A stretch of 41,965 nucleotides of DNA. It comes from Ralstonia sp. TCR112 (GTDB lineage Bacteria; Pseudomonadota; Gammaproteobacteria; Burkholderiales; Burkholderiaceae). How positions within the stretch are numbered: position 1 is the stretch's first letter; the number at the start of each line of letters is the position of its first letter. The notes under the pieces were generated by a model. That model did not search any database. It was not told where the DNA came from and saw only the letters and a list, made by a program, of their open reading frames with translations. The stretch spans positions 1 to 41,965 of the forward strand of contig NZ_VOSS01000049.1 of the NCBI RefSeq assembly GCF_007997035.1, read 5' to 3'. Shown here one piece after another: positions 4,476 to 31,494 of the stretch. The translations under genes were made by a program, and so were the position numbers.

Positions 4476-4480
4476 GACGG
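4476..4480. repeat. Left target-site duplication (GACGG)
   Basis: GACGG directly abuts the TGT terminus at 4481 and is repeated exactly at 31490-31494 after the other terminus. Tn7-family transposition makes 5-bp duplications, so this marks a single insertion event. Confidence 0.9.
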
Positions 4481-4536
4481 TGTTGGCATAGCGAAGAAAA
4501 TTAGAAAATATCGAAGTAGACTAGAAAATATCGAAG
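4481..4536. repeat. Transposon left end with TnsB-type sites
   Basis: The terminus TGTTGGCATAGCGAAG is followed by two direct copies of TAGAAAATATCGAAG (4502-4516 and 4522-4536), 20 bp apart; the terminal ATAGCGAAG (4488-4496) is a partial third copy. A 22-bp block (4487-4508) is identical, in reverse complement, to 31462-31483 at the other end. Spaced short repeats inside the ends are the usual TnsB binding sites in Tn7-like elements. Confidence 0.88.
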
Positions 4537-4954
4537 CTGGAAATGGCAGGATTTCCCATTAAACCCTTTGCTATAGCCATTCCATGCGTTTTCTCTGCTC
4601 CCAAAAATGATGCGGCGCACAATTTGATATGCGACGCATCCGCGCGTCGCGGCCATCTGGCCACAACTTTCACCGCGACTCGATACTTCGCCGGATAGCC
4701 CCAAACCACGTGGTGTTGTAGGGTTGAGCAACATAGCAACACCGGCGCAATCTCACTCTCACCTCTCCATGGCTGCCAAGGACATTCACCGTCACCAATC
4801 GACCCACGCGGCCGGTTCGGGCAGCCTCGCGTTCGTTCCGCTCGAACGAACCCGTACGCGAATAGCCGGCTGATCCTCAGCCTCGATTGGTCCCGGCATT
4901 GTCCGGTTCGACAACTGCGGCTACATGCCGCCAGTTCGCGTATGGAGAATCATC
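4537..4954. other. Non-coding left subterminal region
   Basis: About 420 bp with no convincing gene between the transposon left end and the AAA+ ATPase gene. The one clear structure is an inverted repeat at 4831-4851; the short open frames here show no protein-like composition or ribosome binding site. Confidence 0.6.
4831..4851. promoter_or_regulatory. Inverted repeat upstream of the AAA+ ATPase gene, possible operator
   Basis: GTTCGTTC (4831-4838) and GAACGAAC (4844-4851) form a perfect 8-bp palindrome with a 5-bp spacer, about 100 bp before the start at 4955. The size and symmetry suit a dimeric repressor or a hairpin; no regulator can be assigned. Confidence 0.4.
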
Positions 4955-6163
4955 ATGTCTGCTCCCGAGCACTCCTCGGAGCATCCCCCTGGGTTCTTGC
5001 CCTTAGGCGATCTCGCAGCACTGCGCAGCGCCGCAACATGGCGGTTGCTTATCCCCTCGGACACGCGCTCGGCTCTTGCCGCCGCCCGGCAGGACAATGA
5101 ACCCAAGGAGGAGATCCCTGGATTCTCAGTTGAGGAACCGTCCACAGTTGCGTCGGCGGCGCACGCACCTGCGCCTCGTCGAGCCAAGCCCGGGCATGTT
5201 CTTATCTTTGGGCCCGAGGCGCTAACGCTCGCCAACGTGAACTTGCGAGGTGCCGACCGCTACCAGCGGGATTACGCACAGACATTGTTGGAGCAAGCCA
5301 GCACCAATGACGGCTACCGCGCGCTGCCTCGTACCCGCTCGGCACTGAAGAAGCTCGCAACAGCCCAGACGTTGTTCGGCAACCTGCGCGAGCCAATTCA
5401 GAAGCTGAAGATTGATCTCACGCTTATCGGCGCAATGCGGGCGAAGGACTTTCGCGTTCGTCCGATCCTCCTGACAGGGCAACCTGGCGTGGGCAAAACG
5501 CATTTCGCGTTGAAGTTGGCGGAGATTTTGAATGTGCCGATGCGAAAGTGGTCTGCTGGAAGTGCCCAAGCAAGCTTCCAACTGACGGGCGGCGATAGCG
5601 CCTGGCACCACGCTCGGCCGGGGATGATTGTTGAGATGCTTGCCAGCGGCAAGTCGGCGACACCTGTCCTTATCCTGGACGAAGTGGACAAGATTGGCAG
5701 CGATGGCCGCTACCCGGTTACGCCAGTACTGCTGGATCTACTTGAGTCGGGAACAGCGAGCGCGTTCCAAGACGCGTTTTTCCGCATGACATTTGACGCC
5801 AGCCGAATCATCTATGTCCTGACAGCGAACGATCCCGACGCTGTGCCTCCGCCACTACTGAGCCGCGTAGAGGTATTCGACATCCCGGCACCCGAGCCCG
5901 AGCAACGGCTGCAGCTCATCTTGGCGGAAGTTCGTCGGCTGCAGCGGGCTACCGGCAAACGCATTGAACTGGACGCCAGTGCAGCAGAAGCCTTGTCAGA
6001 GAGAAGTGATGTCGATCTGCGCGCAACGCATCGCTTGGTGCAGGACGCGTTTGCGACAGCAATGGCATCAGGAAAGGCCTTCGCCGTGCTCAAGGTGCCG
6101 CGGCGTGCTGCGCGGCTGACGATCGGCTTCGTAGCGGATGGCCAATCGGGCGAGCGAGCCTAG
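4955..6163 (+). CDS. Lon-like AAA+ ATPase without protease domain
   Basis: A 402-aa protein with a long N-terminal region of unknown role (about residues 1-165) and a C-terminal AAA+ module. Walker A is GQPGVGKT (about 175-182), Walker B is LILDEVD (about 240-245), and SRVEVFDIP after the sensor region resembles the Lon ATPase core. No Ser-Lys protease domain is present, so it should act as a stand-alone motor or chaperone. The ATG at 4955 is chosen for the GGAG upstream. It is followed 140 bp later by a small gene and a metallophosphoesterase on the same strand, suggesting a three-gene unit, perhaps for defence. That role is inferred only from its place in mobile-element cargo. Confidence 0.75.
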   Translation: MSAPEHSSEHPPGFLPLGDLAALRSAATWRLLIPSDTRSALAAARQDNEPKEEIPGFSVEEPSTVASAAHAPAPRRAKPGHVLIFGPEALTLANVNLRGADRYQRDYAQTLLEQASTNDGYRALPRTRSALKKLATAQTLFGNLREPIQKLKIDLTLIGAMRAKDFRVRPILLTGQPGVGKTHFALKLAEILNVPMRKWSAGSAQASFQLTGGDSAWHHARPGMIVEMLASGKSATPVLILDEVDKIGSDGRYPVTPVLLDLLESGTASAFQDAFFRMTFDASRIIYVLTANDPDAVPPPLLSRVEVFDIPAPEPEQRLQLILAEVRRLQRATGKRIELDASAAEALSERSDVDLRATHRLVQDAFATAMASGKAFAVLKVPRRAARLTIGFVADGQSGERA

Positions 6164-6305
6164 GGCGTGGCGACATTGAATCCGCTGATGTCCAACAACT
6201 TGCGCTGCTGGAAGGCAGCCTGAGCAGGGTCACCCCTTTGAACGGCACGCTCGGCCGCGAAAGCGTGGAGGGAGTACTCTTGGGGCACGACAAATGGAGC
6301 AAGCC

Positions 6306-6533
6306 ATGGCGGCAGACAAACTCGGCCGATTCATGACCAGCGGCACATTCCTGGAACGTGCGAACGCGGCAGTGGCTAAGGCAGTGCGTCGCCTCGAAAA
6401 GCGAGGCATCGCACCGGCTTACATCCAGCGCCAACCAAGCCAGCAATCGAAAGTTGGCGCTGGACCGGGCGACAGTCCTCAAGAAGCAAGCTCAGGCGTT
6501 CCTGGACAACATGAATCTCCTCGTTCTAAGTGA
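6306..6533 (+). CDS. Small hypothetical protein coupled to a metallophosphoesterase
   Basis: A 75-aa protein starting MAADKLGRFMTSGTF; its first half looks helical (ERANAAVAKAVRRLEKRG) and its tail is polar. GGAG lies 8 nt before the ATG at 6306. Its 3' end overlaps the next gene by 23 nt, which suggests translational coupling. I do not recognise the family. The alternative frame across the same DNA has a less protein-like composition. Confidence 0.55.
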   Translation: MAADKLGRFMTSGTFLERANAAVAKAVRRLEKRGIAPAYIQRQPSQQSKVGAGPGDSPQEASSGVPGQHESPRSK

Positions 6534-7287
6534 CCTTCATCTCGAATTCTCCCCCCTCGACATCGACACGACCGAGGTAGACGTGATCGTGCTTGCCGGC
6601 GACATTCATCTTGGCAAGCGCGGAATGCCTTGGATTGAAGCCCAGAGCCGCGGCCTGCCGGTCATCTACGTGCCCGGCAACCACGAGTTCTACAAAGGTG
6701 AGCACAGTCGAGTGCTTCGAGATCTGCGTGCGGCGTGTGCCGCGACGCCGAACGTCCACCTTCTCGACATGGATAAGATCATGATCGGGGACGTGGAATT
6801 CCTGGGCGCCACGCTCTGGACAGACTTCGCGCTGTACGGTGGTGCAGAAGAGGAAGTGCGTGCCGCCGAGAGCTACGCTGCTCGGGGCATGACTGACTTC
6901 ACCGGAGCCATTCGCTTCGAAACGCGTGGGGTGTTCAGAAAGCTGCAACCGCGGGACACGGCTCGGATGCACGTCGTCGCACGCGAATGGCTGGACGAGG
7001 AGTTGACCACCCCTTCGCGGCGCAGACGGGTAGTTATCAGTCATCACGCTCCATCTGCGCGCAGTGTGTCTCCGCAATTTCAAGATGACCCGCTCACGCC
7101 GGCGTATGCCAGCCGCATGGATGAAGTGATCCAACTCGCCGATCTATGGATTCATGGCCATATGCACGAGAGCTCTGACTACAGCGCCGGAGCATGTCGG
7201 GTCATCTGCAATCCGCGAGGCTATGCGCCCAAGGGGCGGAGCACAGAAAACAGCGCATTCGATCCGAGGCTGATCTTGCAGGTCTAA
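6511..7287 (+). CDS. Calcineurin-like metallophosphoesterase
   Basis: A 258-aa cytoplasmic phosphoesterase with the full metal-binding set: DxH in LSDLHLEF (near residue 8), GDIH, GNHE in VPGNHEFY, the SHHAPS histidine and the C-terminal GHMH. Substrate unknown; the family includes nucleases, phosphodiesterases and phosphatases. The start at 6511 places the DxH motif at the N terminus as usual, although the frame is open 51 codons further upstream. It overlaps the preceding small gene and shares its strand with the AAA+ ATPase. An ATPase next to a metallophosphoesterase fits a nucleic-acid-acting pair, but this is inference. Confidence 0.82.
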   Translation: MNLLVLSDLHLEFSPLDIDTTEVDVIVLAGDIHLGKRGMPWIEAQSRGLPVIYVPGNHEFYKGEHSRVLRDLRAACAATPNVHLLDMDKIMIGDVEFLGATLWTDFALYGGAEEEVRAAESYAARGMTDFTGAIRFETRGVFRKLQPRDTARMHVVAREWLDEELTTPSRRRRVVISHHAPSARSVSPQFQDDPLTPAYASRMDEVIQLADLWIHGHMHESSDYSAGACRVICNPRGYAPKGRSTENSAFDPRLILQV

Positions 7288-7321: not shown

Positions 7322-8584
7322 TCAAGAAAACAAGAAGGAGCGCTGCGACGGCAAGCGCAGAACATGATTGCCCTTCAGATTAACGCGCGCCCTGGACGGG
7401 TCGCCGGATTCATCGACCACGACGATCTCACCGCCTTGGTGAAGCTCTAACAGGGTGGCCTCCACCATTTCGCGAGTAGCAGGCGTTGTGTTGATCAGCT
7501 TCAGGAAGAACTGCTCGAAGGTCATCCCCTCAGCGCCATCGAATAACATCTCGGGGATCTGCTCGAGCATGGTTTCCTTGCTCACCGCTGCCGCCACCTC
7601 GCCGAAATCGAATCCTGCCTGCAGCTTGTGCTCATCGTCGATCTTGCTGATGTAGCCCGTGCTAAACATGTGGAACCCAGCGTCCCCATAGTGCGAGAAA
7701 TGGTTGTTGTGCTGCCAGTGCGTGGAGGCCATCACATCCCGAGCTTTCCAGTGCTGCGAGAGATGCAGCAACCAGAAATCTCCGTGCCCGCGCTCAGGGC
7801 GAATAAAGAACGGCGTGTAAAACTGGGCCGAGCATTGATTGGTGAGATTCTGGTAGAGCGAGGATTGGAGATGTACGCGCCAGCGTGGCGACTGCTTGAT
7901 CTCGTCGAGCTCGGATGCCCGCACAGATGTACTGACGCCTGTGGCCTTTTGGAAGGCCGCAAGGTTGCGCTCATTCAAGTACTTGATCAGCGCATCAATA
8001 TAAAAGGTGAGGATCACCTCGGCGTGCTTGAGCTTGGCAAAAATATCGCGCAAACACTGCATTGGCACGCCGGAATAGCCGTACTGATCAAGAACAAACA
8101 ATGCTCGCCCAGAACGCGGGCTTCGATCATGGCACCGCTGAATGGCCGCGCCGCAATGGTCGGCAAATTGGCCTTTGACCAAGCGCACCTTACCGTTGGC
8201 GAGTGCGGCTCCGTACCCGCGCTCTTCCAGCAAGCGACCAAGGTAGTGCAACGAGCTCTTTTTGGCGTCAACACAGATGAGTTCGACGTCGATCAGGATG
8301 GGCTTGCGACGCTCTTGCCGAATATTCAGGAGCGTCTCGGCCTCGCGTATGGCTTCAAGAATGACGAGAGGCGAGCCCGGAACTTCCTGGCCATCCTCGT
8401 TGAGATAGAGCCCCCCGCCACAAAAACCATCAACGATGGTCAGTTGGATCTTGTCCTGGTGCGGCAGCGACACCAGCGTCAGGAAATAGTCGACCAAATA
8501 GTTGCGCAGGAGCGCATGCTTGACCTCGCTATGCCGCTTAAGCTGCGGTGGCGGACTTCCCCAGACCCATTTGTAGTGTGGCAT
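7322..8584 (-). CDS. tcmP: Three-Cys-motif partner protein TcmP
   Basis: A 420-aa protein of the TcmP family, which is typically encoded beside a DUF5131 (phage Gp37/Gp68-like) protein carrying a three-Cys motif, as here. The N terminus, KWVWGSPPPQLKRHSEVKH followed by DGFCGGG at about residue 52, is characteristic; FCGGG resembles a nucleotide or AdoMet-binding loop, and FVLDQYGYSG follows near residue 165. Function is unknown. The ATG at 8584 is chosen because the family motif starts immediately after it; the longer open frame begins inside the upstream gene. It is the last gene of a minus-strand set: LexA-like repressor, DUF5131, TcmP. Confidence 0.8.
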   Translation of the reverse strand: MPHYKWVWGSPPPQLKRHSEVKHALLRNYLVDYFLTLVSLPHQDKIQLTIVDGFCGGGLYLNEDGQEVPGSPLVILEAIREAETLLNIRQERRKPILIDVELICVDAKKSSLHYLGRLLEERGYGAALANGKVRLVKGQFADHCGAAIQRCHDRSPRSGRALFVLDQYGYSGVPMQCLRDIFAKLKHAEVILTFYIDALIKYLNERNLAAFQKATGVSTSVRASELDEIKQSPRWRVHLQSSLYQNLTNQCSAQFYTPFFIRPERGHGDFWLLHLSQHWKARDVMASTHWQHNNHFSHYGDAGFHMFSTGYISKIDDEHKLQAGFDFGEVAAAVSKETMLEQIPEMLFDGAEGMTFEQFFLKLINTTPATREMVEATLLELHQGGEIVVVDESGDPSRARVNLKGNHVLRLPSQRSFLFS

Positions 8585-8663
8585 TGAGTGGCAGGCTTGG
8601 TGCGCTCTTGTGACCCCTGCCTGCCAATCTGCCCCCGCGGCCTCAAGGGCGCATCGATGCCTC

Positions 8664-9422
8664 TCACGTAGATGCCACGCGCTCGACGACGGTGACCGGC
8701 ATTTCGTCCCAGGTCCGGCCATTCAATTCGCGACCGTTGGCGGCCTTCGCCCGCTTTTTGCCGTCTGCGCCCCATCCGCCCCACTGCTTGAAGAAAAAGG
8801 CGACTCCCTGCTCCTGACATTGAGCCCGAACGGCCTCTGCCCATTCCATCTTCATTGGGCGCGCCTTCGGGCCAGACTCACCACCCACGATCACCCAATG
8901 AATGTCCGTCAAGTCGAGTTCACCAACATCGGCCAGTAGCGGTTCAACTGATAGGAACCGGATGGTCGCGGGCACTTGGCGTAGGTAGTCAATACGGGGA
9001 ACGCCGTACTTCCGGTCCTCGACAGAGACTCCAAGCCACGCATTCGTCGGCACGGAACGCTTCCGGAAATAGCGCGCCATCCGAGCAGCTCGTTTGGTAA
9101 GTATTTGATATGTATGGTGCGGTGTCTGTGCGATGACTTCGAATACTTTGTCGATATACGCGTCCGGCACCCGCTCGTGGAACAGATCCGACATGGAGTT
9201 CACAAAATAAACTGTCGGCTTCTTGCGTTTGATCGGGTCGTTGAAGCGCTCCGGCAAAAGAGTGAGCGCAAAACCGTTCTCATAGCCAGGCGTCCCCATA
9301 GCTTTCAGCCGCTTGGCCATGGCCTCCGCATAGCAATGCTTGCACCCGGGCGAGATCTTGGTGCACCCGACTGTCGGATTCCAAGTTTGCTCAGTCCACT
9401 CAATCTTGCTGATGGTTGTCAT
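8664..9422 (-). CDS. DUF5131 / phage Gp37-Gp68 family protein with three-Cys motif
   Basis: A 252-aa protein with an N-terminal CTKISPGCKHCYAE (about residues 20-33). The CxxxxxxCxxC spacing resembles a radical-SAM iron-sulfur site and is the three-Cys motif after which TcmP is named. FLSVEPLL and VIVGGESG later in the protein are typical of the family. Enzymatic activity is not established. It starts within the end of the LexA-like gene (23-nt overlap) and lies 79 bp before tcmP, so the three are probably co-transcribed. Confidence 0.88.
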   Translation of the reverse strand: MTTISKIEWTEQTWNPTVGCTKISPGCKHCYAEAMAKRLKAMGTPGYENGFALTLLPERFNDPIKRKKPTVYFVNSMSDLFHERVPDAYIDKVFEVIAQTPHHTYQILTKRAARMARYFRKRSVPTNAWLGVSVEDRKYGVPRIDYLRQVPATIRFLSVEPLLADVGELDLTDIHWVIVGGESGPKARPMKMEWAEAVRAQCQEQGVAFFFKQWGGWGADGKKRAKAANGRELNGRTWDEMPVTVVERVAST

Positions 9423-10055
9423 CGAGATATTCCCTGTTTTTTATCTTAGTCCCACCGGCCGGCTGCGGCCTATAGCTTCGGACAATGCCCCTGACGACGC
9501 CGATGATGTTCAGGGTCTTCTCCGGAGTCGCTGTCTTGCCATCCATGCCGTGCGATACGAGGCGCGGTTGACCTCGATCATTCCTGAATTCCTTGATGGT
9601 CTGGCTACCGTCGATTTCGGCCACCACGATGTCGCCGGTCAAAGCCTGCGAACTCGTCTCAACCACGCGACGTCGCCACTCAGAATCCCTGCGTTCAGCA
9701 TTGAATCGCCGCGCACCTTCACCAGCACGGTCTTCGAAGGCTTCGCCATCAACAGTTGATCGAGAGCCTGGGCTTGCACAAGGCCCGTAGCGCTGCCATC
9801 CGCGCCAAAGCCTGCTCGCACTTCATCGTCGCTCAACTCCAGCGTGAAAAAGGCGGGGCCCGGCGCCAAGCGCCCGCCCACAGACTTAGTCAGATGGCCG
9901 GAAGCAATCAGCCGCTGCGTCAGTTTGAAAGCTGCGTTCTTCGCCTTAAAGCCGAGCGCTTTGGCGATCTGGCTGTACGAGGGCACGCACCCCATCTGCG
10001 CATACGTGTCGCGAAGTCGGCGCAAATGCGCCTGGTCATTGTTGGTTCGAGCCAT
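9400..10055 (-). pseudogene. LexA-like S24 repressor, split by a frameshift
   Basis: The N-terminal part (10055 to about 9670) has a winged-helix-like DNA-binding region (PSYSQIAKALGF), an Ala-Gly pair suited to self-cleavage, and the catalytic Ser in VRGDSMLNAGILSGDV. The frame then runs into noise and stops at 9639. The natural continuation, VVETSSQALTGDIVVAEIDG followed by SQTIKEF with the catalytic Lys, is in another frame down to 9400. One missing base near 9663-9671 explains it: restoring it gives GDVxVVET, matching the LexA pattern. The broken gene can make the DNA-binding domain but not the full self-cleaving, dimer-forming domain. A sequencing error is possible. It heads the DUF5131-tcmP operon. 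Confidence 0.8.
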
Positions 10056-10067
10056 TTCTTTATTTTG

Positions 10068-10083
10068 GTGGACAATCGTCCAC
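10068..10083. promoter_or_regulatory. Candidate operator of the LexA-like repressor
   Basis: GTGGACAATCGTCCAC is a perfect 6-bp palindrome with a 4-bp spacer, 12 bp before the repressor start. It lies between a TTGATT-like -35 element (10085-10090, minus strand) and an AT-rich -10 region, so a bound repressor would block this promoter. The layout matches autoregulated LexA-type genes with xGGAC-N4-GTCCx operators. I saw no second copy in the window. Confidence 0.6.
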
Positions 10084-10155
10084 TAATCAAGAGAAATAAT
10101 TGGACGCGGCGGTGGCCGCGCCCGTCAGATCAACGAAGCAGATATAGACACCCGA

Positions 10156-11049
10156 TCAGGAATCGAACAGGCTCAGGTTGGGACTGCGAGCAATGTCATC
10201 CCAAATGCGGTCTGGCAACTCGTGCCGGGACAGGAACACCATTCGATAGATGATCCGCCCGTTACCATCGGTAATCTTCGGCATCTGAACACTGACCTTG
10301 AAACCCAGGTCCCGCACCGCGTCACACCATGCGTTGAAGAACCACCCCGGCAAGCTTGTCTTGGACAACATATCGGTAGGTACCCTGGACCTCCAGCCAG
10401 GCAGCGCATGGTCAAACCGATCCCGCTGCGAATCCAGTTCCATATCAATGTTGCGCGTTAGATCCATCAGACTGAAGTGGATGGCGAAGTCCACGTGCTG
10501 CAGTTTGGATAGGCGCTCGATGATTGAGAACGACAAGTGTTCTAAGTTGTAAGGGTCGATGTAGGCCAAAGCAAGCGCTCCAAACGGAACTGCCTTGATC
10601 ATGGCATCGACTGTGTCAGTCGCAGACCCAACGAAGCCCTGCACAGTGGCGCCGGTGGCACTAAGGCGCAACTGATTTGCTCGCACTCGCTCCGCATCGA
10701 TGTCGCCGACCAGGACACGTGTGAAGGGCGCGCCAGAGGCGGCGGATTGACGGTACGCCACTACCGAGCCGCCACTGCGGGTAAAGGATTCGCCTACAAC
10801 TTGAATGCGACCGGGACCGCAGAATGGATCAATCAGTACCCGCTGCTTGAACTTCGCCTGGGCCTTACGCGTGGCATGAATATACTGTTTGAGGTAGAGG
10901 TGCTTCTCTTCAGGGACCCACCTACCAACCCCACGCCCATGCGGGCCACGCTCGACTGGCAACTCAGGATAGGGATCTGGGTACTCGTCAACTAGCTTAT
11001 CTGCGTTCAATTGCTTTCTCAAAGGCATGATGGGGCTGGAAGTGACCAC
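10156..11049 (-). CDS. Second TcmP-family protein
   Basis: A protein of about 297 aa, shorter than the TcmP at 7322-8584 but of the same plan: an N-terminal KHLYLKQYIHAT region, then LIDPFCGPGRIQ at about residue 90, equivalent to DGFCGGG in the other copy, and LAYIDPYNLEHLSF in place of FVLDQYGYSG. It therefore probably belongs to the three-Cys-motif partner family. The start is uncertain: GTG at 11049 or ATG at 11028, neither with a clear ribosome binding site. It lies just upstream of the repressor gene, on the same strand but outside the operator-controlled unit. Confidence 0.72.
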   Translation of the reverse strand: MVTSSPIMPLRKQLNADKLVDEYPDPYPELPVERGPHGRGVGRWVPEEKHLYLKQYIHATRKAQAKFKQRVLIDPFCGPGRIQVVGESFTRSGGSVVAYRQSAASGAPFTRVLVGDIDAERVRANQLRLSATGATVQGFVGSATDTVDAMIKAVPFGALALAYIDPYNLEHLSFSIIERLSKLQHVDFAIHFSLMDLTRNIDMELDSQRDRFDHALPGWRSRVPTDMLSKTSLPGWFFNAWCDAVRDLGFKVSVQMPKITDGNGRIIYRMVFLSRHELPDRIWDDIARSPNLSLFDS

Positions 11050-11475: not shown

Positions 11476-11826
11476 ATGCAATCTATCTTCGCCAAGACTT
11501 TCGGTGGCCTATCTCGTCCTTACTACTTCCGCCACTTCCTGTTCGGGTTGCTCTTTCCCGCGTTCTTCTTCTTTGTAAGCCACGCTGGAAAACCGATTCC
11601 CTTCCCAGTCGTTCTATTTTTTATCGCCAACACGTTCCTCTATCCATACGCCAGGTTCGTGTACGAAGGCGTCATGAGCTTCATCCTCGGCAACAACATC
11701 TTCTTTGTGAATGCAATCGTGATGCTGTTTGCCAAGTTCACTACGATGTTGATTTGCTGGGCTTTCGCGGTTTTCATTGCACCAATTGGGCTGGTGTACC
11801 TGTACTTCCGTCACAGCAGGGCGTAA
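11476..11826 (+). CDS. Small multi-pass membrane protein, unknown
   Basis: A 116-aa, very hydrophobic protein with about three membrane segments (roughly residues 20-37, 42-60 and 78-108) separated by short polar loops (PYARFVYEG, LGNNIF). The basic N terminus suggests an inner-membrane protein. I recognise no family. It lies between the TcmP genes and the TnsE-like gene on the TnsE strand. The consistent hydrophobic codon pattern supports a real gene, although no strong ribosome binding site is visible. Confidence 0.55.
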   Translation: MQSIFAKTFGGLSRPYYFRHFLFGLLFPAFFFFVSHAGKPIPFPVVLFFIANTFLYPYARFVYEGVMSFILGNNIFFVNAIVMLFAKFTTMLICWAFAVFIAPIGLVYLYFRHSRA

Positions 11827-23653: not shown

Positions 23654-23741
23654 GTAGGGGGTCGGGCATATCGGATCCCCGGTCCTAAAGAGCGTGTCTT
23701 TAGGCCATCGGTTGCAGCTTCATTCGCTTGCGAGGCCCTAT

Positions 23742-24623
23742 ATGAATCCCATCACCGCATTCCTCGTTGTGCTTCTCCTGTTCCTGGGGGCTGCCACCGG
23801 CGTATTCGTCTCTGTTCTGCTGGCGCCCCTGTTTGCCATCGCCGCAATCCTGCTCGCCGCAACACTCAAGATGGCCAACGCATGGCAGAAGTTCGTCATC
23901 TTGCGTGCGGGCAAGCTGCAAAGCGTAAAAGGGCCCGGGTTGTTCATGATCCTGCCGATTGTCGACAGCGTGACGGCAGTCATAGATGAACGCATCCAGA
24001 CTACCGGATTCAATGCGGAGCAGGCATTGACGAAAGACACCGTGCCAGTCAACGTTGACGCGATCATCTTCTGGCACGTCCATGACGCACAGAAAGCCGC
24101 ATTGGCCATTACCGACTATCGCCAGGCAATCGACCGCGTCGCGCAGACGTCGTTGCGTGAAATGATTGGGGCCTCGATGCTGTCGGCATTGCTATCCGAT
24201 CGCAAAGCGGCAGATGAGCAGTTGCGCGCCGAGATCGGCGAGAAGACTGCAGCATGGGGCGTGACCGTATCCTCGGTGGAGGTGCGCGACGTGGCCATCC
24301 CCGTGGCACTCCAGGATGCGATGTCCAGGCAAGCGCAGGCGGAACGCGAAAAGCAAGCCCGCGTCATTCTGGGCTCGGCCGAAGCGGCCATTGCAGCCAA
24401 GTTTGTCGAGGCTGCCGGCATGTACGAGGGGCATCCACAAGCGCTGCAGTTGCGCGCAATGAACATCATCTACGAGACCACTAAGGAGCGCGGTGCGACG
24501 ATCTTGATGCCAACGTCGATGGTCGACAGCATGAATCCCGTTGCGGTCGCGTTCGGGGTTTCCAGCAGTACAGAGCCGGTGAGTCCTGTCGTGCCCATCA
24601 AGACGGCGGTAGCTGTGGCGTAG
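23742..24623 (+). CDS. SPFH/band-7 (stomatin-like) membrane protein
   Basis: A 293-aa protein with two N-terminal hydrophobic segments, then an SPFH domain: FVILRAGKLQSVKGPGLFMILP, VNVDAIIFWHVHDAQKA, then LREMIG and WGVTVSSVEVRDVAIP, the classic stomatin/slipin stretch. A charged helical region (QAQAEREKQARVILGSAEA) mediates oligomerisation. Such proteins organise membrane microdomains. The start at 23742 puts the membrane anchor first. A strong hairpin follows the stop. Confidence 0.88.
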   Translation: MNPITAFLVVLLLFLGAATGVFVSVLLAPLFAIAAILLAATLKMANAWQKFVILRAGKLQSVKGPGLFMILPIVDSVTAVIDERIQTTGFNAEQALTKDTVPVNVDAIIFWHVHDAQKAALAITDYRQAIDRVAQTSLREMIGASMLSALLSDRKAADEQLRAEIGEKTAAWGVTVSSVEVRDVAIPVALQDAMSRQAQAEREKQARVILGSAEAAIAAKFVEAAGMYEGHPQALQLRAMNIIYETTKERGATILMPTSMVDSMNPVAVAFGVSSSTEPVSPVVPIKTAVAVA

Positions 24624-24630
24624 CGATACG

Positions 24631-24668
24631 GAACACGGCATTCCCGCAGATGTGGGAATGCCGTGTTC
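24631..24668. terminator. Bidirectional terminator, 15-bp stem
   Basis: GAACACGGCATTCCC (24631-24645) pairs perfectly with GGGAATGCCGTGTTC (24654-24668) across an 8-nt loop. It sits between the convergent band-7 and glycine-zipper lipoprotein genes and can serve both. Confidence 0.8.
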
Positions 24669-24692
24669 GGCTTCCATGGTCGCAGCTAAGCC

Positions 24693-24908
24693 CTATTTGC
24701 CAACTTGGTTGCCCACCACCCCGCCAACGACTGCACCACCCACTGTTCCCACGGCACTCCCGCCTGTCAGCACTGCGCCGGCGACACCGCCGACACCCGC
24801 ACCGATTGCGGTATCCGTACCGCGTCGAGACATCCCGGCACACCCAGTCGCAAGCGTCGCGATCAACACCATCGCGCCGCACAGTCCTGCTATTCGATCG
24901 TTACGCAT
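24693..24908 (-). CDS. Glycine-zipper lipoprotein (OsmB-like)
   Basis: A 71-aa protein with a signal sequence and lipobox (LATGC, Cys near residue 23), followed by a long glycine-zipper stretch (GAGVGGVAGAVLTGG and VGGAVVGGVVGNQVG). This arrangement is that of OsmB/17-kDa-type outer-membrane stress lipoproteins. GGAGGT precedes the ATG at 24908; a GTG three codons earlier is less well placed. Confidence 0.82.
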   Translation of the reverse strand: MRNDRIAGLCGAMVLIATLATGCAGMSRRGTDTAIGAGVGGVAGAVLTGGSAVGTVGGAVVGGVVGNQVGK

Positions 24909-25013
24909 TTTGTGCACCTCCGTCTCGATCGCACCCCAAGCATCTTGTTGCAGAGAACGCTGACGCGAGACTTGAATTTTCTGTACAGACCATGAACGGC
25001 GTACAGCCCATCA

Positions 25014-25695
25014 GGGCACCCCTGCGGCAATAGGTAGGTGTCGCGCGAATGCCTCAAGGATCAATATCCCCGGTCACAGCAACGGTGTCGGTACGGCGGC
25101 AGACGCAAATGCACGGGGCTCGATGCTCGATTGTGTTCGCGCATCTTGTCGGCGGTGCCGCGGGTTCGAGCAGGGAATAGAAAGAGCGAGTTCTGTACGG
25201 TACCGGGCCGACAGCGACTCCCCCATCACGTTACGCTGCAGTCACAAATTGCAGTGAGCCGGCACATCCCGGCATACCGAGGGAATCGCAACAAGGATCT
25301 CTATGAACAGTTCACTTAGCCTGTCAAACGGAATGCTTGAAATACGCACGACGCAGCGTAGTGACAGGCGATGGTTTTCTGAATATCGCTTTACGCCCAA
25401 CAATGGACGTGTCACCGCTTGGGCACAGGCTGCGATTCCGGAAGGATTCGTTTCTTCTGGTCTTGCATTCAGCGCGGGGATACTACTGGGGCAACAATGC
25501 GCTGAGCTTACCCGCTGAAGCAGGCAGTGCCATTGTGGGAGAGGTACCGCCGCACGAGATCAACATCGGCATGCTCACAATGTGTCTACGTGTCGACTCG
25601 TATCATAGGAACATCGCCATGGCGGCAGCGCCCATGATCGCCGTGGCGGTCCAGCCCAGAACGATCATGGGTCGGCTTGCGGTGTAAGGCCCCAT
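25014..25695. repeat. Diverged direct repeat, copy A
   Basis: About 680 bp similar along its length to 29615-30300 in the same direction (by eye clearly above half identical, much higher in the coding part). It contains a non-coding leader with TGTACGGTACCG, a small gene (25303-25518) and the 3' end of the NRAMP-related gene. The leader has no other recognisable gene. Confidence 0.8.
25303..25518 (+). CDS. Small duplicated protein, copy A
   Basis: A 71-aa protein containing EIRTTQRSDRRWFSEYRFTP and AIPEGFVSSGLAFSAG, closely matching the product of the second repeat copy. AAGGA lies 7 nt before the ATG. Unknown family; conservation of the reading frame between diverged copies argues that it is, or was, a real gene. 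Confidence 0.6.
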   Translation: MNSSLSLSNGMLEIRTTQRSDRRWFSEYRFTPNNGRVTAWAQAAIPEGFVSSGLAFSAGILLGQQCAELTR

Positions 25696-26889
25696 GACAG
25701 CGGGTTTCGAGACCAGCAGGATGATGACCACCATCAGCGGTACCGCCACCACGCCATTGATGACTGCGCTCCAAAAGAGCGCTTTCATCGGGCTGATCGG
25801 AGAGTACTGAATTGCAAGCCCTGCAAGTACGCTGACCGCGATGATGCTGTAGAACCCACGTGCGTCGCTTACCTTGCGTTCCAGCCCCTCCTTCCAACCC
25901 ATGGTTTCGGAAAGCGCGTAGGCGCCCGAGCCGGCCAGCACGGGTACGCCGATGAGGCCGACGCCCAAAATGCCGATGGTGAACAGCAGGTACGCAAAGT
26001 CTCCTGCAAGCGGCCGTAATGCACTGGCGGCCTGTGCCGCCGTCGTGATGTCGGTGACGCCGGACACATGAAGGGTCACGCCTGTCGCCAGGATGATGAA
26101 ATACGCGGTCACGTTCGAATAAAGCATGCCGCTCCACGTGTCCCACCGGATGCGCCGTAGCTCCGTGCGAGCCTTGGCGCCATCGCGTTTCAGCGATGGG
26201 CGCGCATGCATGTCCTCAACCTCCTCGGAAGCCTGCCAAAAGAAGAGATAGGGGCTGATAGTGGTCCCGAAGACCGCGACGACCATGGATGCGGCGCTCG
26301 CGTTGAGCTTGAAGTGGGGCCACACCGTATGCAGCGCAACTTGGCCCCACGGCACATGCACTGTAAACAAGACGGCCGCGTAGGCCAGCAAGGAAGCTGT
26401 CAGCCACTTCAGAAAGAAGACGTAACGATGGTAAGGAACGAATATCTGCAGCGCCAGCGTGCCAAACACGACGAATGCCGTCATGAGGTGCCGGTCGACA
26501 CCGGAAACAAGTTCTGCGACCTCGCCCATCGCCGCGACGTCTGCGGCGATATTCAGTGTGTTTGCGACCAGCAATAGCAGCACGACGCCGCGCAGCACAC
26601 TCGGCGGGAAGACATCCTTGATGTTGGCGGCGAGCCCCTTTCCGGTGACACGTCCCATGTTTGCGCACATGGATTGAATCGCGGCCATCAAGGGGAAAGC
26701 GAGCGGCATCGTCCAAAGCATGTCCAACCCAAACTGTGCGCCGGCCTGCGAATAGGTCGCGACCCCGCTCGGATCGTCATCGGCCACCCCGGTGATGAGG
26801 CCAGGGCCAACGCGGGACAAGGGATGATCTCTCAACCGCGCCCGCAAGGTGCGATAAAGATTGACCCGGTGGTGTCCACTGGCATCCAT
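25603..26889 (-). CDS. NRAMP-related divalent metal transporter
   Basis: A 428-aa, 11-segment inner-membrane transporter with the NRAMP fold. The first-helix motif is DDDPSGVATYSQ in place of the DPGN of Mn/Fe carriers, and helix 6 has TTISPYLFFWQASEE in place of the MPHxxxLHS motif, so the metal-binding Asn and Met of MntH/DMT1 are missing. This fits the NRAMP-related branch, some members of which move Mg or other ions; the substrate is uncertain. AAGGA precedes the ATG. Its last 30 codons lie in the duplicated block, and a remnant of the same end survives at 30207-30297. Confidence 0.85.
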   Translation of the reverse strand: MDASGHHRVNLYRTLRARLRDHPLSRVGPGLITGVADDDPSGVATYSQAGAQFGLDMLWTMPLAFPLMAAIQSMCANMGRVTGKGLAANIKDVFPPSVLRGVVLLLLVANTLNIAADVAAMGEVAELVSGVDRHLMTAFVVFGTLALQIFVPYHRYVFFLKWLTASLLAYAAVLFTVHVPWGQVALHTVWPHFKLNASAASMVVAVFGTTISPYLFFWQASEEVEDMHARPSLKRDGAKARTELRRIRWDTWSGMLYSNVTAYFIILATGVTLHVSGVTDITTAAQAASALRPLAGDFAYLLFTIGILGVGLIGVPVLAGSGAYALSETMGWKEGLERKVSDARGFYSIIAVSVLAGLAIQYSPISPMKALFWSAVINGVVAVPLMVVIILLVSKPAVMGPYTASRPMIVLGWTATAIMGAAAMAMFL

Positions 26890-27097
26890 TCTGGGAGTCC
26901 TTGTTCACCGAAGGTCGGCTGGAGATGATCATAGCGCTCTACCGAGGACCAGAAGCATCGCGGGTCCGCAAAAGCTGTTCTGCAACATCCCTGTGCATTG
27001 GTCTGCGCATTGAATGAAGAGAAGCGCATCCAAGACCAGCAAGCAACACCGGAGGCACAGGAAGCGCTGCAAGCGCCCGGCTTGGGGACGAAAGGGT

Positions 27098-27415
27098 TCA
27101 CCCCCGTGGCCTTTTCATTGCCTCCGCTTCTTTGGCCGCGTTTCGCTCCTCATAGGCCTCGGTAGGGTCCATTGCCTCGTCCACTGAAGATTCGGCACGC
27201 TCTGCGGATGCCTTCGCTTGCTCCAGAAATTCCACCGACTCCTCTTGCGCACCAATAGGAGGCGTCAGCATGTCTTTGAGCATGGCCTCCAACTCTGGCG
27301 TGTCCCACGGTTCATGCCGCCGCGTTTTGGCTTTGATGTAATGACGGATCTCGGCATCCTGGGCAGCGGTCAACGGGAGCCCTCGAAAAGTACGCCTTAC
27401 GTTCGTATCTGGCAT
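27098..27415 (-). CDS. Hypothetical acidic protein
   Basis: A 105-aa soluble protein with a basic N-terminal half (RRTFRGLPLTAAQDAEIRHY) and an acidic, Ala/Glu-rich helical C-terminal half. No family recognised. A purine-rich GAGGG site precedes the ATG at 27415. It lies 60 bp downstream of, and on the strand of, the second DUF3309 gene, so the two may be co-transcribed. Confidence 0.6.
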   Translation of the reverse strand: MPDTNVRRTFRGLPLTAAQDAEIRHYIKAKTRRHEPWDTPELEAMLKDMLTPPIGAQEESVEFLEQAKASAERAESSVDEAMDPTEAYEERNAAKEAEAMKRPRG

Positions 27416-27475
27416 GACATCCCTCGCATAACTGATTATTTTGGAAACTCATTGACGAAACTCTGCCGCGCGCGT

Positions 27476-27634
27476 TCAGATTTGCCCCGTGAGCATCAGC
27501 ACGAGCACGAAAAGAACAAGAACGCCAATGGCTCCGCTTGGCCCGTAAGTCCACTCAGCGCTGTAGGGCCACACCGGAATCGCCCCGACGAGAGCGATAG
27601 CCAAGATGGTAAGTAGCAGGACACCGACAGACAT
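27476..27634 (-). CDS. DUF3309 small membrane peptide (copy 2)
   Basis: A 52-aa peptide with the same length and layout as the product at 23164-23322: two hydrophobic segments around VWPYSAEWTYGPSG. GAGGAG precedes the ATG at 27634. Sequence differences show that this is an old paralogue and not a recent copy. Confidence 0.86.
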   Translation of the reverse strand: MSVGVLLLTILAIALVGAIPVWPYSAEWTYGPSGAIGVLVLFVLVLMLTGQI

Positions 27635-28061
27635 GACGCGCTCCTCTGGCAGGCTCCCGTGCACATCCTGGCGAACCCGCGTCCAACACGCTTCCAGTGC
27701 CAAATCGAGCCCGGAGCCGCAAGAACTCTCATTGAGAATACGTAGTTCCACCTTGATCCAGGGTAAGTGCTTGGGAGCGTAAAGACGGTCCGGTACCGTA
27801 CGTAACGTCCTACCGACGGGAAGCTTAAAGGATCGTGGTGGGAAGAACCGAGACAAGCTGGAAGAAGGCAGTTCAGGCTGCCTAAACGTCCGGCAGGAAG
27901 CGATCGAACTACCGCTTGGATTGGGCCTACTTGGCGCTCCGAACTGCACGATCCATTCTGGTTTGCCGCATAAGATGCGCACGACCGTTGCAATAACGGT
28001 CATTTCTCCCCGTTTGATGCACTACGCTTGCAGAGGCGGCAGCGAAGAATGGAGGCGCAGC
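27635..28061. promoter_or_regulatory. Divergent regulatory region with conserved motif
   Basis: About 430 bp without a gene between the second DUF3309 gene and the plus-strand small gene at 28062. On the minus strand 27785-27802 reads CGTACGGTACCGGACCGT, nearly the same as 22976-22993 upstream of the other DUF3309 gene. Longer open frames in this stretch are not protein-like. Confidence 0.45.
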
Positions 28062-28322
28062 ATGACCCGTACAACCGAGTACCGAGGCTTCGAAATTCAT
28101 CTGCAATTGATTGGGACGCAGAAGGACATGTTCGATCTGTGGTTCAGCATCGACGGCCCCATGAAGCCGCCTGGTGTCGCTGCGATAGGCAAGCGCATCA
28201 AGGTCCACGGCAGCCCTTTTTCTCGACGCTGGGCGCACCTGATTGGCGAACTGGCAGGCCGCGCCGCAGTAGACGTGATTCTCGGCCCAGAAGAGGAGTC
28301 TCCCGCGACGGACGAGCGATAA
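28062..28322 (+). CDS. Small hypothetical protein with YRGFEI start motif
   Basis: An 86-aa protein starting MTRTTEYRGFEIHLQ. Together with the 94-aa product at 29306-29590 (CQYKGYDVYPL) it belongs to a loose group of small proteins with an N-terminal Y-x-G-F/Y strand seen in stress clusters. GGAGG precedes the ATG. Function unknown. It converges with the transglutaminase-like gene, 17 bp apart. Confidence 0.6.
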   Translation: MTRTTEYRGFEIHLQLIGTQKDMFDLWFSIDGPMKPPGVAAIGKRIKVHGSPFSRRWAHLIGELAGRAAVDVILGPEEESPATDER

Positions 28323-28339
28323 GTCGCCACATCCACCTC

Positions 28340-29200
28340 TCACCACGTACTGATTCCTTGGACAGTGTCAATTGGCATGCTGGTTTTCAGATCCGCGTTC
28401 TCAAGGGCCTGAACTTCCACGATCGGCCGCGACAATTTGACGTTACCAAACACCAGGGCAATGGGCACGTCCGCCGCATCGCGTCCGGTACCGATTCGCA
28501 GAAGCCCCATGGGCACCGCCGCCTGCGAGGGGTCGACCAGATACCATTGGTTTCCCAGAAAAACCTCCACGAAGGCGTGGAAGTCAGGCAATCCCAGCGA
28601 TGGATCGGCACCATAGTCGAGACTGGTTGCGAAGCGCGCCGGTATGCTCAGCGCGCGGCACAATGCAATCATCAAGTGCGCATAGTCGCGGCACACGCCC
28701 TTTCGCTCCACGAGCGTGCCGACCGCAGACGTTCGCTCGCTCGTTGACTGCGGTACAAATCGCACGTAACGACAGACCCAGTCACGAATCCGGATAACCA
28801 GCGGATAGCCACGTTGGCAGCCGCCAAATTCCTGCTGCGCAAACTCCATGAGCCGGTCCGACTCGCAATAGCGACTAGGGGTCAAGAATGGGACAACGTA
28901 CAGCGGTAAATCCGCAATAGGGACTTCGTGCAGCAGTTCGGCGGGCGTCAATAGGTGTTCTATGTCCACCGTCGCTTCATAGGTCAAGGTGAAGTTGCCC
29001 CGAGGCGCCCGTACACGCAAACGGCGATTGCGCAAGGTCGGTTCGGTATGAGGCACGGTCGACATCGCCGGCGTCAGATGCAGTGACTCGGCGACGATCG
29101 TCTGGCGAGACGTCTTCGCGGCGTGAACATTAAAAATGAAATCCGCAGTTGGATCACGTACCTCATAGGCCAAGCGGACTGAGTAGCGCATGCGAACCAT
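28340..29200 (-). CDS. Transglutaminase-like cysteine peptidase family protein
   Basis: A 286-aa protein with an N-terminal beta-rich domain (about 1-115) and a transglutaminase core: Cys in RKGVCRDYAHL, His in LPDFHAFVEVFL and Asp in WYLVDPSQ form the catalytic triad. Bacterial members may be peptidases or amide-forming enzymes; no signal peptide is seen, so it is probably cytoplasmic. AGGAGGG precedes the ATG at 29200, ten codons inside the longest open frame. Confidence 0.86.
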   Translation of the reverse strand: MVRMRYSVRLAYEVRDPTADFIFNVHAAKTSRQTIVAESLHLTPAMSTVPHTEPTLRNRRLRVRAPRGNFTLTYEATVDIEHLLTPAELLHEVPIADLPLYVVPFLTPSRYCESDRLMEFAQQEFGGCQRGYPLVIRIRDWVCRYVRFVPQSTSERTSAVGTLVERKGVCRDYAHLMIALCRALSIPARFATSLDYGADPSLGLPDFHAFVEVFLGNQWYLVDPSQAAVPMGLLRIGTGRDAADVPIALVFGNVKLSRPIVEVQALENADLKTSMPIDTVQGISTW

Positions 29201-29305
29201 ACGACCCTCCTGTAGCCCCCGGAGCCACATGGTTGTTGGAAAAAAAGTGATGGGTGAATAGCCGCGTCGCGGAGTCCCGACCGTTGCCCAAAAACTGGTG
29301 GGCGA

Positions 29306-29590
29306 TCACGCGAAGGCCATGGACTGAACGGGAACGAAGCCGTTGATGATCTCTTCAGCGCCCTTCATGGCGGCACGCTTGGCCGTACCGATGCTCTCCC
29401 ATGGTTCACCGCTCAGGCGAAAAATACGGGAATGCGCCGCATCCGGAAATGCGCCTTCGAGGCAGATCATCACAGAGGCGCTGTATGACCGATCTGGACG
29501 ACGCTCGTGCCATTCCCGAGGCGGGTCAAACAGGTAGATCAAGGGATAAACGTCGTACCCCTTGTATTGGCAAGTCGGATAGGCATCCAT
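29306..29590 (-). CDS. Small hypothetical protein with YKGYDV start motif
   Basis: A 94-aa protein beginning MDAYPTCQYKGYDVYPL and ending with FRLSGEPWESIGTAKRAAMK, an ending often seen in small stress-cluster proteins of the Y-x-G-F/Y group. GGAGA precedes the ATG at 29590. Function unknown. The duplicated block starts about 25 bp upstream. Confidence 0.6.
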   Translation of the reverse strand: MDAYPTCQYKGYDVYPLIYLFDPPREWHERRPDRSYSASVMICLEGAFPDAAHSRIFRLSGEPWESIGTAKRAAMKGAEEIINGFVPVQSMAFA

Positions 29591-29876
29591 GGCGATCTCC
29601 GTTGGAGGGGGCACCCGTGCGGCAATAGGCATGTGTCGCGCGAATGTCCCAAGAACCAAGATCCTTGATCGCTGGGAAGGTGTCGGTACGGCAGCAGACG
29701 CATTGATCGCGTGGTCTGCTCCGATGTGTTTGTGCATGACGGGGCGGTGCAACAGCTTCGATCTAAGGGACCAACAACCGACCAACTTCTGTACGGTACC
29801 GAGCCGACAGGTCCTCACCAGCAAACTACGTTGGAATCACAAATAACAGTGAACCGGCACGTTCCGGCATACCAGG

Positions 29877-30113
29877 GTGACCGCAACGAGGATCTCCATA
29901 ATTAGCTCGCTTGACCTGCCCAACGGAGCACTCGAAGTGCGCACGACGCAGCGTAGTGACCGGCGATGGTTTTCCGAATATCGCTTCACGCCCAATGATG
30001 GACGTGCCACAGGCTGGGCAGGGGCCGCTATCCCGGAAGGATCCATTTCCTCTGGCATCGCATTCAGCGCTGGGATACGACCGGGGCAACAGTGCGCTGA
30101 GTTTGCGCGCTGA
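29877..30113 (+). pseudogene. Small duplicated protein, copy B, start codon lost
   Basis: Encodes EVRTTQRSDRRWFSEYRFTP and AIPEGSISSGIAFSAG, clearly homologous to the gene at 25303-25518. The position of the copy-A ATG reads ATA here, so translation would need the GTG at 29877 (78 aa) or a rare start. The frame is otherwise intact. Either a recently silenced copy or a gene with a shifted start. Confidence 0.5.
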
Positions 30114-30206
30114 AGCAGGCAGTGCCATTGAGGGAGGCACGGCGCCAACCCATTGCAAGAGGTCAGCGTCGAGATGCGCACAATGTGTTTGCGTGTCGAT
30201 GCCTAC

Positions 30207-30297
30207 AATGATAGGAACATCGCCATGGCGTCAGCGCCCATGATCGATGTGGCAGTCCAGTCCAGGACAATCCTGAGCCGGCTCGCGGTGTAGATCC
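30207..30297 (-). pseudogene. 3' remnant of a second NRAMP-related gene
   Basis: The minus strand reads GIYTASRLRIVLDWTATS then IMGADAMAMFLSL, matching the last residues of the transporter at 25603-26889 (PYTASRPMIVLGWTATA and IMGAAAMAMFL). Only about 28 codons survive; upstream sequence is replaced by the gene at 30319. This shows that the duplication once included a complete transporter gene. Confidence 0.75.
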
Positions 30298-30318
30298 CCA
30301 TCCTAGCGAGGGACGAAT

Positions 30319-30783
30319 ATGAGCTCTTATGACAAGCTTGACGCAGCAATGAATGCGTTCGACAAGCGCAAGGCCGAAGAGAAGGAAGACGCTGCCGACA
30401 AGCAGATCGCAGTGGAAAAATTTCGGACCGATTTCGCGGCGTTCCGAATGAAGACAGCGCATCCCGTCTTTGAAGACATCGGCGCCCATCTGCAGAAACG
30501 CGGCCATGGCTTCAAAGTCGAAATGACGGCACTGAGCACGACGCTCCATGTTTTTCCCGCCGGCAGGGAGGCACAGGAGTATGACTCAGGGCACGCCAAC
30601 CAATACCCCAAGATCACGTTGATAGGCGACGCGCTCGACCAAAAAGTTCACGTGCACATGGTGGTTTCCAACCGTAGCGGAACGGCGTCAACCTCTGAGA
30701 TCACCCTTGATCTGAGCGACCTGACTGCGAATTCTTTGCGCGATCTGATCGTGGAGTGCCTTGCGAAATCCTTTGCGGGCTGA
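30319..30783 (+). CDS. Hypothetical protein, coiled-coil N terminus
   Basis: A 154-aa soluble protein. The first 45 residues are a charged helix (MNAFDKRKAEEKEDAADKQ), followed by an alpha/beta region with VHVHMVVSNRSGT and SLRDLIVECLAKSF. I recognise no family. A GAGGGA-like site precedes the ATG. It is the last clear gene before the right end of the transposon. Confidence 0.62.
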   Translation: MSSYDKLDAAMNAFDKRKAEEKEDAADKQIAVEKFRTDFAAFRMKTAHPVFEDIGAHLQKRGHGFKVEMTALSTTLHVFPAGREAQEYDSGHANQYPKITLIGDALDQKVHVHMVVSNRSGTASTSEITLDLSDLTANSLRDLIVECLAKSFAG

Positions 30784-31408
30784 CTGCTCGATCGCAGCCC
30801 ATGGTGGTGGAGCTAGGCCCTTACAACGCCAACACACACAGCATCACGAATATTTGGCCCGCAGGCCAAGGCGACCATACACCCGCCGTGGTGGATTTGC
30901 CTGGCCGAGGCTTGGGGGCGCTGCCATATGCATAGTCGCAGACTCCTGGAAAGCTCTGACAGGCCGGGATGTGGTGCGTCGCGCGTGGCGCGCCAACGCG
31001 CCTCCACAATTCTGCCCCCGCAACCCACACGAGTTCCGAAGCCTGGATTGCGGTGTCCTTGCCAAGCGGAGTCCGAAAGCTGATGGATTGGCGGAGCTTT
31101 CCCGGAGCAGAACATCCGTGTCAAGCCTGAACCTCATACGGAGCAAGCGTCGACAAGCGTTGATCGATCATGGCGCAGCCAACGGTAAAGTGATACAGGC
31201 TTTGCCATGCGTGATCCTTGATGTCGAGCACGGCATGCATTTGGATATCGCGTTGCCAAGCTTGTCGAGCTAGGTTACAGGCGGCCATGGAGGGTTGCCA
31301 GTGTCGAGTCCCGGCGCGAGCGCGAAGCCTGTACTAGCACGAGCGAAGCAAGCCGGAATGGCCCAGCATTGACACCGCAACACGATCTACGCCATCCAGT
31401 TCAGCAAA
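30784..31408. other. Non-coding right subterminal region
   Basis: About 625 bp between the last cargo gene and the TnsB-type sites. Open frames on both strands are low in protein-like features. I see no RNA gene or repeat shared with the left end here. Confidence 0.55.
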
Positions 31409-31489
31409 CTTCGCTATTTTTTCTAACTTACTTCGCTATTTTCTCTAAGCAAGATAGCGTTTTTTCTAATTTTCTTCGCTATGGCGACA
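31409..31489. repeat. Transposon right end with TnsB-type sites
   Basis: Reading inward from the terminus (minus strand), TGTCGCCATAGCGAAG is followed by a variant site and two good sites (31431-31447 and 31409-31425, plus strand CTTCGCTATTTTCTCTA and CTTCGCTATTTTTTCTA), 22 bp apart. The 22-bp block at 31462-31483 is the reverse complement of 4487-4508. The right end carries more sites than the left, the asymmetry seen in Tn7. Confidence 0.88.
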
Positions 31490-31494
31490 GACGG
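31490..31494. repeat. Right target-site duplication (GACGG)
   Basis: Exact copy of 4476-4480, directly after the ACA terminus of the element. Confidence 0.9.

Follow-up and report, generated by a model that had tools for sequence, protein, structure and literature searches.

What is the 27-kb insertion that separates dps from oxyR in Ralstonia sp. TCR112, and what brought it to that position? The window, the whole stretch of DNA that was analysed, comprises 41,965 bp of contig NZ_VOSS01000049.1 and contains a Tn7-like transposon of 27,009 bp at 4481–31489. Elements of the same family have entered the same position, just 3′ of oxyR, in several Ralstonia lineages. We read the locus as a complete cut-and-paste Tn7-like transposon with TniQ-dependent insertion at one site 3′ of oxyR and with TnsE as a second route, and give this reading a probability of about 0.82. 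As far as the literature searched shows, the recurrent oxyR 3′ attachment site is what is new here; the element is otherwise of a known Tn7-like type.

Bounds, ends and transposition genes

A complete Tn7-like transposon between dps and oxyR had been proposed by the initial annotation, and the ends, repeats, duplication and tns gene set are all found. The proposed span of 4476–31494 is right but takes in both copies of the target-site duplication, so that the element proper is 4481–31489. It is flanked by a Dps-like ferritin (3277–3777) and a LysR-type protein that we take as OxyR (open reading frame (ORF) 31522–32469). Its G+C content is ~0.51–0.61, versus 0.63–0.69 from 32 kb on (1-kb bins).

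4476–4480, no strand: target-site duplication GACGG, left copy (window sequence)
4481–4536, + strand: left end, with its TGT terminus and three repeats like TnsB sites, spaced 20 bp apart (repeat search)
31409–31489, − strand: right end, with repeat array and ACA terminus, on the oxyR side (repeat search)
31490–31494, no strand: target-site duplication GACGG, right copy (window sequence)

The left end reads TGTTGGCATAGCGAAG from 4481, and the right end, on the reverse strand and ending at 31489, reads TGTCGCCATAGCGAAG. Direct comparison bears out the 26 of 28 terminal bases said to be identical, with mismatches at positions 4 and 6, and the GACGG duplication lies exactly where it had been placed. 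The arrays described at both ends are also real, although the right-end copies are variants: the repeat TAGAAAATANCGAAG occurs twice exactly at the left end (4502 and 4522), with one mismatch at 31431 and with two at 31409. When every 15-mer of the 41,965 bp, read on either strand, was compared with it, these four copies, two per end, were the only ones with three mismatches or fewer; all other places listed, away from the ends, have four. TGT…ACA ends, TnsB-site arrays and a 5-bp duplication are present in the window and also in three other Ralstonia genomes (G005, G014 and G012). Rfam models gave no match at gathering scores, and among viral contigs 41 stretches fitted a pattern, none of which was confirmed.

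Inside the element, tnsA, tnsB, tnsC and tniQ form one leftward row from 18108 to 13558.

17449–18108, − strand: tnsA, endonuclease (PF08722 and PF08721; VPD…VEIK)
15523–17445, − strand: tnsB, DDE transposase (PF09299; closest solved relative Tn6677 TnsB, 2e-45; D248/D333/E369)
14625–15530, − strand: tnsC, TniB-type AAA ATPase (PF05621, 9.9e-62; Walker A GPSYSGKT)
13558–14628, − strand: tniQ, 356 aa (PF06527)

The catalytic residues are intact, as had been claimed: the TnsB triad D248, D333 and E369, which is invariant in three aligned homologues, VPD…VEIK in TnsA, and the Walker A motif of TnsC. TniQ has seven invariant cysteines and a nearly invariant His151 across 23 aligned homologues. The TnsB DDE transposase, TnsC ATPase and TniQ-domain protein identify a Tn7-like element, and TnsA assigns it to the cut-and-paste branch. 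In 398 genomes of the family, a subset of a larger group, TniQ finds matches at E ≤ 1e-20 in 11, with more than 36% identity only in the four Ralstonia genomes carrying the element. A candidate second copy in the window genome (G000:C268, L026) was set aside: it is a 230-bp tnsB piece with small differences, fused at the edge of a contig to a gene that by eye resembles ftsY, and is probably an assembly chimera.

One site 3′ of oxyR, empty and occupied across the genus

The insertion lies 3′ of oxyR in an arm of the inverted repeat GCCGTCA…TGACGGC, with the right end facing oxyR and the tns genes transcribed in the oxyR direction. Our genus set holds 16 genomes including that of the window (G000); the joined window flanks were aligned to 12 of the others, the remaining three (G005, G012 and G014) being occupied. 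The empty site that the initial annotation had suggested looking for at 4480/31495 is uninterrupted in nine of the 15 other genomes (G001, G002, G004, G006, G007, G009, G010, G013 and G015), allowing for small indels and for divergence of the G002 sequence at the very junction. Another five are occupied. G005, G014 and G012 carry elements with 5-bp duplications, while G008 and G011 hold relicts: insertions of ~4.3 and 16 kb whose ends have decayed and around which no duplication stands out. G003 (Ralstonia sp. ASV6) lacks the conserved 3′ site. TnsB, or a long fragment of it, occurs at ≥85% identity in four of the 16 genomes, each time at the oxyR 3′ site, and a 65-base left-end search matched six of the 16. 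Besides the oxyR region, one solitary end-like sequence was seen, close to two genes that look by eye like an IS21 pair (G011:C2:276238–276268, L179).

The G012 element measures ~21.6 kb. G005 and G014, both R. pickettii strains, carry a 35,033-bp element with a single mismatch between the copies, in host flanks that are 92.0% identical. The window, G005 and G012 have GACGG duplicated and G014 has ACGGT; the G005 and G014 duplications are offset by 1 bp. The G005 insertion was read from contig ends: C2 (reversed) finishes in …ATGACGG, C26 starts with GACGGCC, and C35 consists of the element and nothing else. This last contig (L022/L023) runs precisely from TGT to ACA; the assembly is broken at both of its ends, perhaps reflecting several copies or an extra-chromosomal form.

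Measured by eye, the insertion lies ~19 bp past the oxyR stop in the window (stop as in relatives), 14 bp in G012, 20 bp in G005 and 19 bp in G014, and ~28–32 bp from a conserved block on the other flank. An A+T-rich block, TTTGATTGTTTTTATCTATCAATTAG, is nearly invariant by the site in the genomes printed, except in G003 and partly in G013. In the window, the A+T-rich block at 4415–4475 beside the insertion holds an imperfect palindrome and is kept across most of the genus; we presume that it may be a LysR-type (OxyR) box. The window oxyR itself (31522–32469) shows a one-base length difference near its 3′ end relative to three relatives, and its last ~15 residues differ from those of nine genus genomes, which would reflect either a real frameshift or a sequencing error. 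For this comparison the OxyR C-terminus was read in nine of 15 loci; G008, G009, G011 and G013 were left out and G004 was compared as DNA. An oxyR attachment site for Tn7-like elements was not found in the literature searched, which did not cover supplementary tables, and the word 'oxyR' is absent from the main texts of PMC10293859, PMC8649781 and PMC10702557.

Independent insertions and a mosaic history

In a tree of the host flanks (3,678 columns), each of three occupied genomes groups with empty ones: the window genome with G004 (support 1.000), G014 with G007 (0.984), and G005 with G001 and G006 (0.990). Some other nodes are weak (for example, 0.100 and 0.040). These empty sisters, together with the 1-bp offset, imply at least three separate insertions; G012, for which the set offers no close empty sister, is probably a fourth. 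Repeated independent insertion at one position makes the region just 3′ of oxyR a recurrent attachment site. Neither this recurrence nor the tnsE gene described below had been noticed in the initial annotation.

The same data could be read as one old insertion, inherited vertically and lost from most species, with the duplication merely surviving. All intact copies in the genus do occupy the same position, and the window tns proteins differ by ~10–27% from those of G005/G014 and G012, as an old insertion would allow. However, the sites in the empty sisters bear no excision scar, the offset between the G014 and G005 duplications strongly disfavours a common origin, and a 35-kb element with one mismatch sits in hosts that are 8% apart at the flanks; we therefore consider a single insertion very improbable. 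A TnsE homologue is present, and insertion directed by TnsE or by chance might have landed here, but this is refuted genus-wide by the same or next nucleotide having been struck in at least three lineages, and its probability is negligible.

The elements themselves are mosaic. From 19.0 to 31.5 kb the window is ~99% identical to G012 (95.8–100% in 500-bp bins, with identity falling at the right end), whereas the tns module is 78–84% and the host flanks are 82–93% identical; tnsB is found only in parts in G012. The right-hand cargo and right end have thus been shared recently between elements with older, diverged transposition modules. The exact duplication had been taken to suggest a fairly recent insertion, and the ~99% identity to G012 against flanks of 82–93% adds to that view.

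How the site may be selected

In the mechanism we propose, the ends would be cut and joined by TnsA and TnsB, which the TniB-type TnsC would couple to the target selector. On the chromosome, a TniQ-dependent pathway would direct the element to a single attachment site immediately 3′ of oxyR, with its right end facing that gene, within GCCGTCA…TGACGGC, and insertion would duplicate GACGG or ACGGT. TnsE would probably open a further route, leading to plasmids or replicating DNA, and this would explain movement between species. Two selectors, TniQ and TnsE, are the probable architecture, in which TniQ, not a partner or host factor, would read the site and TnsE would work as in Tn7.

Our best guess for the site reader is TniQ itself. 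Its structural model has a confident core (residues ~10–300) and a tail of mostly low confidence (302–313 and 319–356), and the protein looks core-only, without a long C-terminal extension past the ~300-aa core. The scans of the element ORFs gave no recognisable TnsD tail, TnsF or Cas gene. Domain and profile scans, with no structure-based search for a remote TnsF, revealed no recombinase-like domain in these ORFs, nor did they contain a resolvase domain or a Cas effector; PADLOC matches to CRISPR-associated transposons (CASTs; CRISPR, clustered regularly interspaced short palindromic repeats) were limited to TniQ, TnsB and TnsC, and no CRISPR-like direct repeats (≥24 bp, within 200 bp) occur in the element. 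A more specific proposal, which we hold tentatively and with the odds leaning against it, is that a core-only TniQ, lacking a TnsD tail, TnsF or guide RNA, reads the DNA of the oxyR 3′ end as a new safe-harbour site, and that the closest relative switched gene by divergence of TniQ.

An unrecognised partner could instead pick the site, with TniQ acting only as an adaptor, as in Tn6022 with TnsF. The 356-aa TniQ, with its confident core and mostly low-confidence tail, would suit such a role, and the available part of PMC10293859 describes a short TniQ as a hallmark of extra selectors. Against a partner, comparison at the DNA and protein level shows that the regions common to the window and G005/G014 elements contain three genes besides tnsABC–tniQ–tnsE.

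4925–6163, + strand: AAA+ ATPase (Lon-like AAA module), accessory gene by the left end (PF00004, 1.8e-15; 75% identical in the G005/G014 element)
6358–7287, + strand: calcineurin-like metallophosphoesterase, paired with the AAA gene (PF00149, 2e-11; PADLOC PDC-S10, 1.8e-9)
11476–11826, + strand: small hydrophobic protein (hydrophobic by eye), upstream of tnsE (479-column DNA alignment, 78% identical between the window and the G005 element)

The AAA/phosphoesterase pair also stands with a different kind of Tn7-like gene set in G004, which weakens it as a site selector, and G012 gave no AAA match at E ≤ 1e-40. PADLOC gave no match for the small hydrophobic protein. A diverged selector could still be encoded in unshared cargo, and we regard a partner as a serious contender, somewhat short of even odds. 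It is improbable that the transposon is drawn in by host OxyR or by a structure that the site forms. The nearly invariant A+T-rich block ~30 bp from the insertion, and the position inside an inverted repeat, would fit such attraction; against it, the relative in Ideonella described below lies 3′ of an unrelated gene.

A divergent TnsE

The 560-aa ORF convergent with tniQ is, by sequence comparison, a divergent TnsE.

11917–13599, + strand: tnsE homologue, 560 aa, convergent with tniQ (BLASTP 1e-15 to L149; profile match to TnsE_C proteins)

General scans found no family match for this protein, and a Pfam scan of it did not return TnsE_C. The assignment rests on intermediates; direct Pfam, phmmer and structure searches gave no significant match. 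Relatives of the protein adjoin distant tnsABC–tniQ sets in six further loci (L111, L113, L117, L118, L122 and L126; 34 fetched). The L117 relative matches TnsE_C at 2e-5, just below the curated cut-off, and L149, which the window protein matches in BLASTP at 1e-15, passes the TnsE_C (PF18623) cut-off. Profile comparison matched the C-terminal part of two strong TnsE_C proteins (P-value 7e-6); TniQ versus TnsE profiles, as a negative control, gave 0.43. Against the PDB, phmmer produced one insignificant match (E 0.98) and a profile search none, and in Foldseek the TnsE C-terminal structure 5d17 came only at rank 12 (E 3.6).

A close plasmid-borne relative was not found: TnsB protein matches occur in 3,439 of 72,556 plasmid records, all below 60% identity, with the best among the matches listed at ~42%. 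The same records gave no DNA match to window 4300–4900, and with 4481–29480 (25 of the 27 kb) only short matches (1–2% of the query) in four Cupriavidus records.

Points that weigh against the proposed reading

Several observations count against a TniQ-dependent transposon with TnsE as a second route. The case for transposition is drawn from sequence, from which we would infer that the genes are active today. The G005 adjacency at the site is inferred from contig ends. In G003:C87 (L163), two tandem left ends of this family (10062 and 12073) lie 5′ of oxyR near a contig end, and no right end precedes that contig end. The distances from the insertion to the oxyR stop and to the block on the other flank both vary, and on this basis neither of the two can be singled out as the one recognised. 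By a rule given in the available part of PMC10293859, where TniQ is short there is usually an additional selector, and none was recognised here. For TnsE, the AlphaFold2 model is poor at the C-terminus and Foldseek found no PDB match at E ≤ 0.001; the plasmid route has no direct example, given the lack of a close plasmid-borne relative.

Cargo

The remaining cargo lies on both sides of the transposition genes.

7322–8722, − strand: TcmP (three-Cys-motif partner), candidate defence (TIGR04474, 5.9e-65; PADLOC PDC-M30A, 1.2e-21)
8664–9422, − strand: DUF5131/radical-SAM-like partner of TcmP (PF07505, 1.1e-112; PADLOC PDC-M30B, 2.9e-114)
9639–10055, − strand: LexA-like S24 peptidase/regulator (PF00717, 9e-6)
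10156–11049, − strand: second TcmP-like gene (TIGR04474, 7.1e-36)
18865–30549, no strand: right-hand cargo, including unknowns (~99% identity with G012 beyond 19.0 kb)
19546–20628: AI-2E-type transporter, right-hand cargo
20711–21430: Crp-type regulator, right-hand cargo
22012–22617: SYLF lipoprotein, right-hand cargo
23694–24623: SPFH/Band 7 protein, right-hand cargo
25603–26889: Nramp transporter, right-hand cargo
27476–28003: DUF3309 protein, right-hand cargo
28340–29230: transglutaminase-like protein, right-hand cargo

At 7322–11049, the two TcmP-like genes and the DUF5131 gene match the PADLOC candidate systems PDC-M30/M41. The AAA gene and its phosphoesterase are a candidate Tn7-associated accessory or defence pair. 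Relatives of the AAA gene (70% and 57%), found in G004 and G010, are not near oxyR and lack these ends. Cargo without the ends had been named as evidence that would speak against the bounds; looked for with the AAA gene only, the G004 and G010 copies are diverged and do not refute them. The G004 relatives of the AAA and phosphoesterase genes (G004:C3 8704–10713, L164) stand beside a set comprising 733-aa TnsB-like, 506-aa and 624-aa genes (named by eye), pointing to an accessory gene shared between transposons.

The family appears to move genes linked to stress, and candidate defence genes, from one Ralstonia species to another. Its natural replicates (empty, occupied, 1-bp offset and relict) fix the insertion point to the base and add a recurrent attachment site for Tn7-like elements. 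They also offer a small system for asking by what means a short TniQ locates its place on the chromosome when no known partner selector is recognised.

Comparison with known systems

Tn5053/Tn402 elements have no TnsA and use a serine resolvase; the element described here has TnsA, and no resolvase domain among the ORFs scanned. Type I-F3 CASTs such as Tn6677 share the closest solved TnsB (2e-45), the TniQ core fold and the PADLOC matches to CAST TniQ, TnsB and TnsC, but they carry a Cas effector and guide array, neither of which appeared in our scans. Acinetobacter plasmid relatives, which we presume to be Tn6022-like, have TnsB proteins 36–38% identical to that of the window. The Tn6022 family has a short TniQ and a tnsE on the opposite strand, as does our element (PMC10293859, available part); it sits in comM, where our element does not.

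E. coli Tn7 shares TnsA, TnsB, TnsC, a TniQ-domain selector, TnsE, TGT/ACA ends with arrays and a 5-bp duplication, as well as insertion 3′ of a conserved gene with the right end gene-proximal (for some of these features, available part of PMC11406308). Tn7 proper uses glmS, whereas the gene here is oxyR, and its TnsD has a long C-terminal extension, whereas our TniQ stops at 356 aa. The TnsE that Tn7 possesses is matched here by remote homology, with a structure search that was not significant. Unlike Tn7, the element has a TniB-type TnsC (PF05621), a divergent tnsE on the opposite strand, and its tns genes mid-element.

The closest element outside the genus, among 34 named loci, comes from Ideonella sp. 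MAG2 (PTEU01000001.1), with a TnsB 61% identical to that of the window. Right after its tniQ come Cas6, a CorA-like protein, Cas10 and large RAMP proteins (type III-D-like by PADLOC), together with two clusters of 36-nt CRISPR repeats; this module could be either cargo or a targeting module. The available part of PMC8649781 mentions two Tn7-like elements with type III systems. Compared with the 59 kb around the element, the five Ideonella spacers have, besides the arrays, a longest match of 16 nt (one mismatch), which falls within the element; beyond the right end the best is 13 nt with one mismatch, giving no sign of guide-directed homing there. The Ideonella element (G398:C2:489246–509932, L109/L176/L177) spans 20,687 bp and, like ours, has exact ends (16 of 16 terminal bases identical), a duplication (GTGGC), a TnsE-like ORF (similar N-terminus by eye) and the same polarity 3′ of a conserved gene. 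Its right end faces a redoxin/TlpA-like gene 31 bp away, whereas the window element is at oxyR. Bounded 3′ of another gene with the same polarity, it shows the Tn7 pattern of insertion with other genes.

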